Source: Actinomycetota bacterium (GTDB lineage: Bacteria; Cyanobacteriota; Vampirovibrionia; Obscuribacterales; Obscuribacteraceae). From it: 14,854 nt of DNA. The translations under genes were made by a program, and so were the position numbers. The stretch's first letter is position 1. Each line of letters opens with the position of its first letter. Positions 9,721 to 12,344 of the stretch are shown piece after piece. The notes below the pieces were generated by a model. The model ran no database searches. It saw only the letters and a list, made by a program, of their open reading frames with translations, and had not been told where the DNA came from. The stretch is from assembly GCA_903970355.1 (NCBI GenBank), contig CAJCIF010000289.1, positions 1 to 14,854 of the forward strand. The letters are read 5' to 3'.

Positions 9721-10347
9721 TTATATTCGATCGAGTGACTTTCTTAGATAAGCCATAAACTTATCCGGATGATAATTCGTTGCTGATTTCCATTGCCAGA
9801 CGAAGCCACTTCCGGACTCTCCCAAAAGCCTGGTTCCTGTAGAATCAACTACCGCGCTGGTAGCGATTCCCCATTTTAGTGCGGTAAAAGATTTCCAGAC
9901 CTTCTTGTATTTTGCGATTGCGGTAAGCGCTTCCGGGAAACCATATTGATCGCAATCGGCGTACAGCGGAATAAAATCGCGGTTGAGAAGACTTATTACA
10001 TTGGGGTCGGAGAGCGAACTGCCCTGCATCAATCTACCGCCAAGTCATGTCTCGCGAATGTCGTTACTATTCCCTACCCAAGCCTTTGGAGAAGTCTTTT
10101 TCTGTCTGACGACAAAGAATACGAAAATCGGTTTATTCTCTTTGCGCGCCTCAGTTAAAGCAGCAGCAACGCTCGTACGCCAGTTGATTGTTTGCCAGAG
10201 GTGACACTTCTCGTGAGTTGTTATGGTGTCGATTGCCTCTTTCAAATTCTTGTATTCGCAAGTGTTCGCCCCAACTGCAAATTGAGCGCAAAGACCCCCT
10301 GACAAAAGGGAGAGCAATGCAATACTGGCAATTTTTCTGTGCTTCAT
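9721..10347 (-). CDS. Secreted thioredoxin-fold protein with in-frame UGA: candidate selenoprotein
   Basis: Read through one TGA at 10047-10045, this is a single 208-residue frame. Taken as ordinary stop it splits into 100 codons and a downstream remnant without a ribosome site. A signal peptide is visible (MKHRKIASIALLSLLSGGLC then AQFAVGA, cleavage likely before Asn28). The mature part has a helix (ALTEARKENK), the thioredoxin beta strand KPIFVFF (72-78), then after an extended loop RET-U101-LGG, and DPNVISLLNRDFIPLYADCD (114-133). In thioredoxin_7-like proteins the first Cys of CxxC lies 13 residues before that D-P/E-x-V; here U101 lies exactly 13 before Asp114. The site is therefore U-x-x-G, with no resolving Cys. 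GIATSAVVDSTG, near 165, is the usual cis-Pro strand region but lacks the Pro. A redox role in the periplasm is inferred. AGG upstream of the ATG at 10347 serves as RBS. The alternative is a nonsense-mutated pseudogene. Confidence 0.65.
10006..10030 (-). promoter_or_regulatory. Candidate bacterial SECIS hairpin
   Basis: Just 3' of the in-frame UGA, the leftward RNA can form AGGGC-(AGUUC)-GCUCU, a five-pair stem (10021-10025 with 10011-10015; one G-U) closed by a five-base loop (10016-10020). Beyond mismatches it is extended by further pairs to 10030/10006. The loop carries G at its second position, 26 bases after the UGA. Bacterial SECIS elements are described as a small stem-loop with a G among the first two loop bases, about 16-37 bases downstream of UGA, and this one fits. 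The stem is short, and many random sequences satisfy such a loose rule. Confidence 0.45.
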
Positions 10348-10432: not shown

Positions 10433-10882
10433 TTAGGAACCGGCGCCGCTGTTTATTCTCTCAATTTGGCGTGTTTGTATCGCGCCACCAACAAAGCTGT
10501 AGAAAGCAGCGATGTCGACGTAACGGCCGTCTGAACCAAGAATTGGCAGACTAATCGTTTCGCCATTGGTTAGATAGATAAGAAGCACTCTAGCAGCAGG
10601 ATCGTGAATCAAAAGGTGCTTATCATGATGCAGAAAGTCACCCGTTTTTATGTCATCGTAGTTAACAAACCTTGTTTTGCCAGAGCTAGTTATATGCAAG
10701 CCTTTTTGTGTTATAAGTATGCTTCCATCCGGCTTACCAGGCTCATTTTCGTAGAGTCCAAAGATTGTTTCATCAGGATCTAATGTGAAGGTTTTCGCCC
10801 AACCTGAAGAATCATCGAACTTCTTGAAATTGAACATTTTGTCCAAATGCTTGGCTGCTCTAGATGCAATTGGTACAGGCAT
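10433..10882 (-). CDS. Small PH-like-domain protein, tandem copy B
   Basis: A 149-residue protein, about half identical to its upstream neighbour over nearly the whole length. AGG eight bases before the ATG (10882), overlapping the neighbour's stop region, supports the start; the gap is nine bases, so the two are co-transcribed. Shared features are MPVPI-x-SRA at the N terminus, FDDSS, YENEPG (44-49), an LITQKGLHI strand, VNYDDI, HHDK, SLPILGSDG and the C-terminal helix VGGAIQTRQIE. The all-beta strand succession followed by one C-terminal helix, with 'I-T-x-KGL' and 'YDDI', is the pattern of small bacterial PH-like domains. No membrane segment or signal is present, so it is cytosolic. The function is unknown; it might bind a partner or membrane lipid. 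Confidence 0.75.
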   Translation of the reverse strand: MPVPIASRAAKHLDKMFNFKKFDDSSGWAKTFTLDPDETIFGLYENEPGKPDGSILITQKGLHITSSGKTRFVNYDDIKTGDFLHHDKHLLIHDPAARVLLIYLTNGETISLPILGSDGRYVDIAAFYSFVGGAIQTRQIERINSGAGS

Positions 10883-10891
10883 GTTTCTAAC

Positions 10892-11344
10892 CTAAGATTC
10901 TGAACTAGTGTCGCTCTTCTCTTTTTCAATTTGACGATTACGAATCGCGCCGCCAAGAAAACGAGAGAAAGAGGAAATGTCCGCGAATTTGTCTGTTGAA
11001 CCCATAATTGGCAGACTAAAACTTTTACCGTTAAGGAAATGAATAATAATTCGCTTGTCAGGGTGGGCATCCATGAGTGACTTGTCGTGGTGCGCCCAAT
11101 CGGTGGTGCTTATGTCGTCATAATTTATATAGTCGATTTTAGCTGAACCAAAAACATGTAATCCTTTATTGGTTACCAAAACACTTCCGAGTTGCTGCCC
11201 TGGCTCATTTTCATAGACACCATATGGGATTTCATCTTGCGACAAATTGAGAGATTTATCCAATTGGGATGAATCATCGAATGGTTTGAAATTCGACAAT
11301 CTATGCAGGGATTTCTTTGCTCTGGATTCGATTGGTACAGGCAT
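10892..11344 (-). CDS. Small PH-like-domain protein, tandem copy A
   Basis: A 150-residue paralogue of the following gene and the first of the pair. The start at 11344 has GGA about five bases upstream. It shares MPVPI-x-SRA, FDDSS, YENEPG, LVTNKGLHV, INYDDI, HHDK, SLPIMGS and the GGAI-x-x-RQIE C-terminal helix. One residue is deleted relative to its sister in the strand before LNGKSFSLP. The fold is inferred as PH-like (seven strands plus C-terminal helix). No signal peptide and no cysteines are present, and the C terminus is Lys/Glu/Ser-rich. About 50 % identity means the duplication is old enough for the copies to have diverged, perhaps to form a heterodimer. It follows the metalloprotease-like gene by 79 bases. 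Confidence 0.75.
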   Translation of the reverse strand: MPVPIESRAKKSLHRLSNFKPFDDSSQLDKSLNLSQDEIPYGVYENEPGQQLGSVLVTNKGLHVFGSAKIDYINYDDISTTDWAHHDKSLMDAHPDKRIIIHFLNGKSFSLPIMGSTDKFADISSFSRFLGGAIRNRQIEKEKSDTSSES

Positions 11345-11423: not shown

Positions 11424-12344
11424 TCAACGGGTAGGAACGCCCAGATCGCGCAAGATTGCTACATCTAGACGGCCAACGGGAATGCGAAGTCCGTATTTGG
11501 GGTCCGTATAAGGCCACGCGCCGGCCATCAGACCGAAGAGACTGAGCGGCGACTCATTGGGCACTGTATAACGACCGTAGTGATAGTAATTTTGAGAACG
11601 AGAAATGCTTGCACTATATTCTCGTCCCTTAGAAGTGAAAGAGATTTGTCCAGAATCCTGGCTGAAAAATGTAAGCGGCAGGTCTCCGCCATAGAGCGCA
11701 TTTGTGAAAGGACCCCGGAAGGCTGGTGCATTAGAAACAGGATTAATCATGCGGGCGTCGAACATGGAAGGGAAATCATTGGGGTTCATTTCTCCCGTCA
11801 TTCTGTTGCGCCGCCCGTTGATACCATAGGCGTGTCCGACTTCGTGCGCAAAAGCTGTAACGAGATCAATCTTGCCCCTTGGGACTGGCAATTTTCTCTG
11901 AAAGGGCTCGGGATCCATCCAATATGATCTGCGCATAAATTCCGGCTCAACATCGACAACCACATCCGGTTTAATACCATTGGTATCTTCCCCGGTGCGC
12001 ATTTTGTGAGCTGCACCTTCCTCGATTGTCTTCTGTCCGTTGTACATGATCGTAGAACAGGACGCCGAGGCTCCTCCGAATCGCCCCGAGCGCGTGTGGT
12101 CAAGAACACGTATCTCGTAATCTACTTTCGAAACGCCATCGATATATTGTGCCCAATCATTCAAAGCAGCAACGAAGTTCAGCTTGACTAGATCTCTATC
12201 ACTACCGAGACGATTGTTTGGGTCATCAATGGCAATGCTATATTCACTTCCCTGCTGGCTGTAAGTTGGTGCGCTCCAAAGCAACTGCGAGCCGGCGGTG
12301 AGAATGACAGAAAAAGATATTTTACGTAAAATGGCTTGCATCAT
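11424..12344 (-). CDS. Secreted metalloprotease-like protein (HExxHxxG, third ligand atypical)
   Basis: A 306-residue protein with an N-terminal signal peptide (hydrophobic about 8-24, then SAPTYSQQ). ATGs at 12344 and 12341 are equally plausible, and no clear Shine-Dalgarno distinguishes them. The active-site helix is AFAHEVGHAYGINGRRN, with zinc ligands His167 and His171 and general base Glu168. Metzincins have HExxHxxGxxH/D, but here the position of the third ligand (177) is Gly followed by Arg-Arg, so either another residue completes the site or it is inactive. A candidate Met-turn, DFPSMFDARM, lies 18 residues downstream. The C terminus ends GRLDVAILRDLGVPTR, like the 'D-x-A-x-L-x-D-x-G' end of bacterial matrixin-like extracellular proteins. 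Cys96 is single. It heads the leftward five-gene run. I am confident of a secreted zincin-like protein, less so of activity. Confidence 0.8.
   Translation of the reverse strand: MMQAILRKISFSVILTAGSQLLWSAPTYSQQGSEYSIAIDDPNNRLGSDRDLVKLNFVAALNDWAQYIDGVSKVDYEIRVLDHTRSGRFGGASASCSTIMYNGQKTIEEGAAHKMRTGEDTNGIKPDVVVDVEPEFMRRSYWMDPEPFQRKLPVPRGKIDLVTAFAHEVGHAYGINGRRNRMTGEMNPNDFPSMFDARMINPVSNAPAFRGPFTNALYGGDLPLTFFSQDSGQISFTSKGREYSASISRSQNYYHYGRYTVPNESPLSLFGLMAGAWPYTDPKYGLRIPVGRLDVAILRDLGVPTR

Follow-up and report, generated by a model that had tools for sequence, protein, structure and literature searches.

Does the single in-frame TGA that divides a thioredoxin-like gene of an obscuribacterial genome end translation, or is it read as selenocysteine (Sec)? 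The gene lies on the reverse strand of contig CAJCIF010000289.1 (assembly GCA_903970355.1), of which a stretch of 14,854 nucleotides was analyzed as a whole and is hereafter called the window. Very probably the UGA at codon 101 would be decoded as Sec by tRNA-Sec together with SelA, SelD and a presumed SelB, under the direction of a short downstream hairpin. The wider statement, chemistry included, that the product is an exported thioredoxin-fold selenoprotein acting as a one-Sec oxidoreductase is favored more cautiously, as probable, and is graded below the Sec part because we infer its chemistry.

Gene structure and reading frame

An upstream open reading frame (ORF) of 100 codons (10347-10045, reverse strand) is closed by the TGA at 10047-10045, and a downstream ORF of 103 codons (10032-9721, same strand and frame), which ends at a TAA, begins four codons past this TGA. 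Joined, the two encode 208 residues with the TGA at codon 101 as the sole interruption, and the D of a DPNV motif follows at residue 114, 13 residues past the TGA codon. The original prediction, made from the letters of the window, had described this layout (two same-frame ORFs of 100 and about 103 codons separated by one TGA and four codons, a joined product of 208 residues, and a TGA 13 residues before DPNV), and its coordinates proved exact. It had also taken TGA for a normal stop in other genes; since 7 of the 17 remaining window ORFs that were counted as genes end in TGA, this codon is not generally reassigned here. Its claim that the downstream half is intact agrees with the comparison to L015, the nearest homolog fetched with its DNA, where the proportion of nonsynonymous differences (pN) was 0.32 upstream of the TGA and 0.25 downstream (the first 12 codons after the TGA omitted), against a saturated synonymous proportion (pS) of about 0.9. 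On this comparison, protein-level constraint acts on both halves of the gene.

Homologs and recurrence of the TGA

Used as a single query, the window protein matched only itself in its own genome (G000; 3.75 Mb, 548 contigs, 65.7% complete), and a scan of genome contigs returned only six distant thioredoxin-like loci with 28-31% identity. Across 99 genomes (G000 included) nine further matches were found in seven other genomes, each with exactly one internal TGA. The nine close sequences were aligned (alignment A1; members 26-58% identical to the window protein), the most distant sequence, L021, being excluded and kept in another alignment, and the TGA falls in column 119 in all nine. Searching 50 genomes of the same family with the A1 profile yielded 109 matches in 39 genomes; 81 matches, spread over 35 genomes, hold one TGA (the window's row in the profile table also counts two TAA, since its match extends past the gene end). 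The TGA position is identical in all 81, with 46 and 33 located at model column 95 and the remaining two (L015 and L016) at the column that holds the TGA in A1. Judged from these alignments, such a shared position is far beyond chance.

The 28 matches lacking a TGA have Cys (13), Glu (1) or Gly (1) at this position, or a gap or an end short of the column (13). Hence 13 of the 15 with a residue at the site carry Cys (L047, L071 and 11 of 23 further loci), which is mostly the first Cys of a CHWC or CxxC motif, and the single Gly comes from an alignment that is one residue off a CxxC. The original prediction had proposed that homologs be inspected for Cys or TGA at this codon, and these are the two states that predominate. 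The Cys homologs are distant (DsbH and thioredoxin types) with the exception of L071, which corresponds closely to one Sec subgroup and has Cys in place of Sec. Two of the 13 rows with a gap or an early end belong to L034 (G035:C18:93347-93771), a decayed copy with its halves in different frames and its active-site stretch lost. A further paralog, L130 (G040:C1:534305-534619), has Cys-Glu where others show Cys-Sec.

Forty-eight sites were classed by the motif that begins at the Sec position (U): nine of the window type, UxGGR (one of them UMASR), 15 UxNAR, 18 USAGN-like, five UGNGH and one other. G000 carries three of them, namely the window gene (UxGGR), L057 on contig C524 (UxNAR) and L058 on contig C450 (USAGN). 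Cys directly precedes the Sec at 21 of the 48 sites, and the window gene has Thr there. Taken together, the motifs point to a superfamily with at least four kinds of active site, which goes beyond the single protein first described.

Selenocysteine machinery

G000 contains genes for tRNA-Sec (69.6 bits; called SeC with anticodon tca by ARAGORN), selA (509 bits) and selD (343 bits). The original prediction had made its reading depend on the Sec machinery of the genome, and it stands for these three components; SelB was looked for in the 65.7%-complete assembly without being found, and 31 of the 50 family genomes have it (E up to 1e-60). The tRNA-Sec was above cut-off in 39 of these 50 genomes and occurred together with SelB in 28. 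A 189-bit match of the SelB model in G000 was rejected as EF-Tu, being an ORF of 394 residues that follows genes for tRNA-Thr and tRNA-Tyr.

Of the 39 genomes that have tRNA-Sec, 32 carry TGA genes, against 3 of the 11 others (Fisher p 0.0012, uncorrected for ancestry). Two of the latter three (G019, G043) have SelB and the third is G045, so that TGA genes occur in 34 of the 42 genomes with tRNA-Sec or SelB versus one of the eight with neither (G045). Six genomes of genus g12 (G011, G029, G036, G042, G044, G046) have tRNA-Sec and TGA genes and no SelB at E 1e-60, which would reflect either a divergent SelB or gaps.

Frozen codons and a SECIS-like hairpin

Among the nine close members, codons +8, +9 and +11 after the TGA were identical in all 72 of 72 pairs that share a residue, while at codons +7 (4/21) and +12 (6/36) the synonymous choice varies. 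Over codons +6 to +12 as a whole, 99 of 159 pairs agree; beyond codons +1 to +12 the figure is 758 of 2096. None of 2000 synonymous permutations attained the agreement seen over +6 to +12. The hairpin of the window gene lies within this stretch, which is frozen across paralogs.

Bacterial selenocysteine insertion sequence (SECIS) elements are described in PMC13188914 as having a stem of 4-16 base pairs and a loop of 3-9 nucleotides with an early G, located 16-37 nucleotides after the UGA, and a minimum free energy of -7.5 kcal/mol or lower. Under this geometry (PMC13188914) a site was counted as passing if fewer than 5% of its synonymous recodings gave as good a hairpin. Passes were obtained at 32 of the 48 sites, distributed as 2/9 UxGGR, 13/15 UxNAR, 15/18 USAGN, 1/5 UGNGH and 1/1 other. 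The typical hairpin is GAGAAC[CGUGYU]GUUCUC in UxNAR and GAGAGC[CGUGUC]GCUCUC in USAGN genes, with the loop in brackets; those of UxGGR genes are weaker and form around [AGUUC] or [GGUCA]. The hairpin of the window gene fits the geometric rule (5 base pairs, loop AGUUC, 24 nucleotides), and 3% of recodings equal it. In 33 sites of the UxNAR and USAGN classes, of which 32 are distinct, pairing was seen in 87.9% of cells versus 38.4-57.1% when the alignment was slid, and three pairs were changed on both sides. When ten sites were folded as single RNA sequences, none of the energies was significant (z -1.38 to 0.49), and an Rfam scan of the window gave no match over gathering score.

Predicted fold, export and proposed function

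An AlphaFold2 model based on nine sequences (predicted local distance difference test, pLDDT, 78.7; predicted template modeling score, pTM, 0.77) shows a thioredoxin fold from about residue 47. Residue 101 is placed immediately before the helix of residues 102-109, which is the place of the attacking Cys in thioredoxins, and the PDB neighbors of the model are DsbD-type proteins, AGR2/3, DsbH and thioredoxins. A sequence match to 3ira aligns the Sec site on the first Cys of its CHWC motif. Both results uphold the proposal that the TGA stands where the first Cys of CxxC lies in related proteins. The motif of the window protein is ETULGG, so that the U-x-x-G site proposed earlier reads U-L-G-G, with no Cys at +3; eight of the nine close members, among them the window protein, have Gly as the +3 residue, and L017 has Ser. 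At the cis-Pro place, read from alignment A1 against the thioredoxin sequence, all nine have Ala, Thr or Ser (Ala in the window protein). The Gly at +3 and the Ala at the cis-Pro place make a classic dithiol cycle of the CxxC kind improbable.

Residues 9-20 form a hydrophobic stretch (mean hydropathy 2.12) in an N-terminal region modeled with low confidence, and the N-terminus is hydrophobic in all nine close members. This suggests that the window protein is probably exported; the earlier description of an exported thioredoxin-fold protein is thus supported for the fold by the model and for export by these N-termini.

In the mechanism that we propose, UGA at codon 101 would be translated as Sec via tRNA-Sec, SelA, SelD and the presumed SelB, with a short hairpin about 24 nucleotides downstream directing the insertion. 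The resulting selenol would be positioned at the N-terminal start of the active-site helix, in the place of the attacking Cys of thioredoxin, DsbD and DsbH, and the protein would most likely be a periplasmic one-Sec thiol or peroxide oxidoreductase. Its Sec may pass through a selenenyl sulfide or a selenenic acid. In C-U members the neighboring Cys would then resolve this intermediate, a role that a different thiol would take in T-U members, among them the window protein.

A serious rival to this one-Sec oxidoreductase, though on balance an unlikely one, is a selenoprotein whose Sec binds a metal, a metalloid, an Fe-S center or a partner and undergoes no thiol or peroxide turnover. Such binding would suit the lack of a +3 Cys in all nine close members and the substituted cis-Pro place, as well as the vicinal Cys-Sec pair at 21 of the 48 sites. 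The distant relatives and the nearest folds, which are thioredoxin- and DsbD/DsbH-like, speak for turnover instead, and no metal gene was seen by eye among the ORFs listed near two close members.

Counterevidence and alternative readings of the TGA

Several observations weigh against Sec insertion directed by the hairpin. Only the window gene and L015 passed the hairpin test among the nine UxGGR sites; the hairpin of the window gene has just 5 base pairs and is not the minimum-energy fold, and its region reaches -5.2 kcal/mol versus a synonymous mean of -6.6. In the UxNAR and USAGN alignment further pair types were not above shuffles (499 of 500 reached the count), a slide of -2 comes near the true register (covariation score 0.241 vs 0.282), and 17 of 32 hairpins leave the outermost pair open. 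The assembled part of G000 yielded no SelB, and 11 of the 39 family genomes with tRNA-Sec show none at E 1e-60. Homolog searches returned no full-length Cys ortholog of the window's own subgroup, and one database homolog, P0002, has Gly at the Sec site. We read the hairpin of the window gene as a weak member of what the UxNAR and USAGN genes suggest to be a real element.

If a variant code or leaky termination let UGA stand for some other residue (Trp, Gly or a near-cognate insertion), no selenium would be involved. Two database proteins cross the site in this manner, P0002 with Gly and P0027, which is related to the USAGN subgroup, with Trp. These residues match translation tables 25 and 4, so that both entries may be products of gene calling, with the TGA probably translated by these tables. 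Against this reading stand the use of TGA as a stop in other window ORFs, the predominance of Cys among the sense codons at the site and the presence of tRNA-Sec, selA and selD in the genome, and we consider it very improbable.

A true stop with two chains made from one mRNA, the first an exported piece of 100 residues and the second, begun at an internal start codon, about 100 residues long, has a smaller chance still. It would account for the database relatives, 9 of the 10 found with A1 in global protein databases (P0003-P0011) starting just after the TGA, as do 119 of the 120 matches listed (of 415) in the USAGN search, and an ATG sits six codons 3' of the TGA. No Shine-Dalgarno-like stretch was seen by eye upstream of this ATG, as the original prediction had said of the downstream half, and the downstream piece would have neither the export signal nor the first part of the thioredoxin fold. 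The constant TGA, the catalytic Cys position and the association with tRNA-Sec would be left unexplained.

A decaying gene, its TGA due to a nonsense mutation or to faulty assembly, might gain some color from the decayed relative L034 and the fragmented G000 assembly; this reading can be set aside almost entirely in view of the same TGA codon in 35 genomes, the protein-level constraint that persists downstream of it and the frozen synonymous codons right after it, as the original prediction had argued with regard to random nonsense mutations.

Distribution in the phylum

PsaA/PsaB were found in 48 of 117 phylum genomes, all of them of other classes than that of G000, and neither in G000 nor in the genomes of its class that were sampled; the host phylum is Cyanobacteriota, and the genome of the window is without photosystem I. 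Database relatives of the USAGN subgroup are named 'Candidatus Obscuribacterales bacterium' and 'Cyanobacteria bacterium'. When 386 phylum genomes were searched with the A1 profile (E 1e-5, at most 7 candidates scored per genome, so that weak homologs may be missed), only TGA-free open frames of 681-732 residues, one of these frames with a TAG, were found outside the family, in 19 genomes. The tRNA-Sec model scored above gathering in 153 of the 386 genomes, eight of which, including G000, have matches of 67-72 bits and 91-95 nucleotides; the other matches listed above gathering, with 47-50 bits and 84-88 nucleotides, are probably tRNA-Ser. Strong tRNA-Sec matches (67-72 bits) outside this class occur in G099, G103, G109, G115, G117, G131 and G140, from families f12, f22 and f28.

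We consider it likely that a large superfamily of thioredoxin-fold selenoproteins arose in the non-photosynthetic Cyanobacteriota (Candidatus Obscuribacterales) and is restricted to this lineage, with many members probably exported, Sec alone as the catalytic residue, at least four classes (UxGGR, UxNAR, USAGN, UGNGH) and an early G-U or G-G in the SECIS loop. If true, the belief that the cyanobacterial phylum is without Sec would be overturned, and Sec use would be placed in a phylum for which two papers report its absence (PMC1794560; PMC9312934); the former adds that users may simply be unsequenced as yet. Cyanobacteria are nowhere mentioned in PMC5330540. The many divergent paralogs with frozen codons would also be a source for deriving a lineage-specific SECIS rule.

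Features and genomic context

Features proposed in the window and in two further contigs of the same genome
Feature	Position	Strand	Basis or remark
Putative selenoprotein gene, complete, 208 codons + TAA, read through the TGA	9721..10347	-	Frame and homologs of like architecture
In-frame TGA, proposed Sec101, place of the first Cys of CxxC	10045..10047	-	Position comparison with homologs
SECIS-like hairpin, 5'-AGGGC [AGUUC] GCUCU-3', loop 24 nucleotides past the TGA	10011..10025	-	Weak in the window gene
Active-site helix, residues 102-109, LGGRLMQG, directly after Sec101	10021..10044	-	AlphaFold2 model
Thioredoxin-fold domain, residues 47-208	9724..10209	-	AlphaFold2 model, PDB matches
Probable signal for export at the N-terminus, residues 1-27 with a tentative cleavage site	10267..10347	-	Hydrophobicity
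Putative Sec-type paralog L057, UxNAR class	G000:C524:5486-5671
Putative Sec-type paralog L058, USAGN class	G000:C450:3107-3322

Comparison by eye of the window with the ORFs around two close members revealed no shared neighbor genes, and the context therefore offers no operon clue. Just upstream of the gene lie two ORFs of 149 and 150 residues (10433-10882 and 10892-11344, reverse strand), which both begin with MPVPI and by eye are apparently paralogous. A further ORF (11424-12344, reverse strand) has a signal-like N-terminus and an HEVGH motif, from which we presume that it is possibly an exported zinc protease.

Comparison with known families

Pfam and NCBIfam gave only sub-threshold matches for the window protein and the scanned Sec-type members; the sole match over cut-off was DsbH for L054, a member without a TGA. 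The genes thus appear to constitute a new selenoprotein family, which annotation would have hidden by cutting them at the Sec codon.

The closest PDB folds (DsbD C-terminal domain, AGR2/AGR3, ERp19-like; 13-22% identity) are Cys-based and not known to be selenoproteins. Thioredox_DsbH (PF03190) and Thioredoxin_7 (PF13899) are akin to the window protein in fold as well as in sequence, with the Sec position aligned to the first Cys of the CHWC motif, and differ in that the window protein has UxxG in place of CxxC and scores 23.4 and 16.5 bits against a gathering score of 27. The original prediction had recognized no described UxxG family, and this agrees both with the thresholds above and with the table of 119 prokaryotic selenoprotein families in PMC13188914 (2026), which in its available part contains no thioredoxin-fold entry with a motif of this kind; no paper on the selenoproteins or motifs of this lineage was found among the titles and abstracts listed from the open-access literature. 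The NCBIfam models matched most often by the superfamily were those of the VPGUxxT thioredoxin-like selenoprotein (NF041383/NF041382), which shares the Sec, the thioredoxin-like character and a weak alignment over the early fold; its scores of 12.7-23.0 bits lie far from the cut-offs of 275 and 350 (window protein versus NF041383, 15.1 bits), and VPGU is absent, the window protein having ETULGG. The Trx7/PDZ selenoprotein (NF041199) likewise has a Thioredoxin_7-like part and a Sec, and is distinguished by the score of the window protein (13.9 bits, cut-off 300) and by its motif, given as CxxU in PMC13188914, as opposed to U-L-G-G in the window protein.
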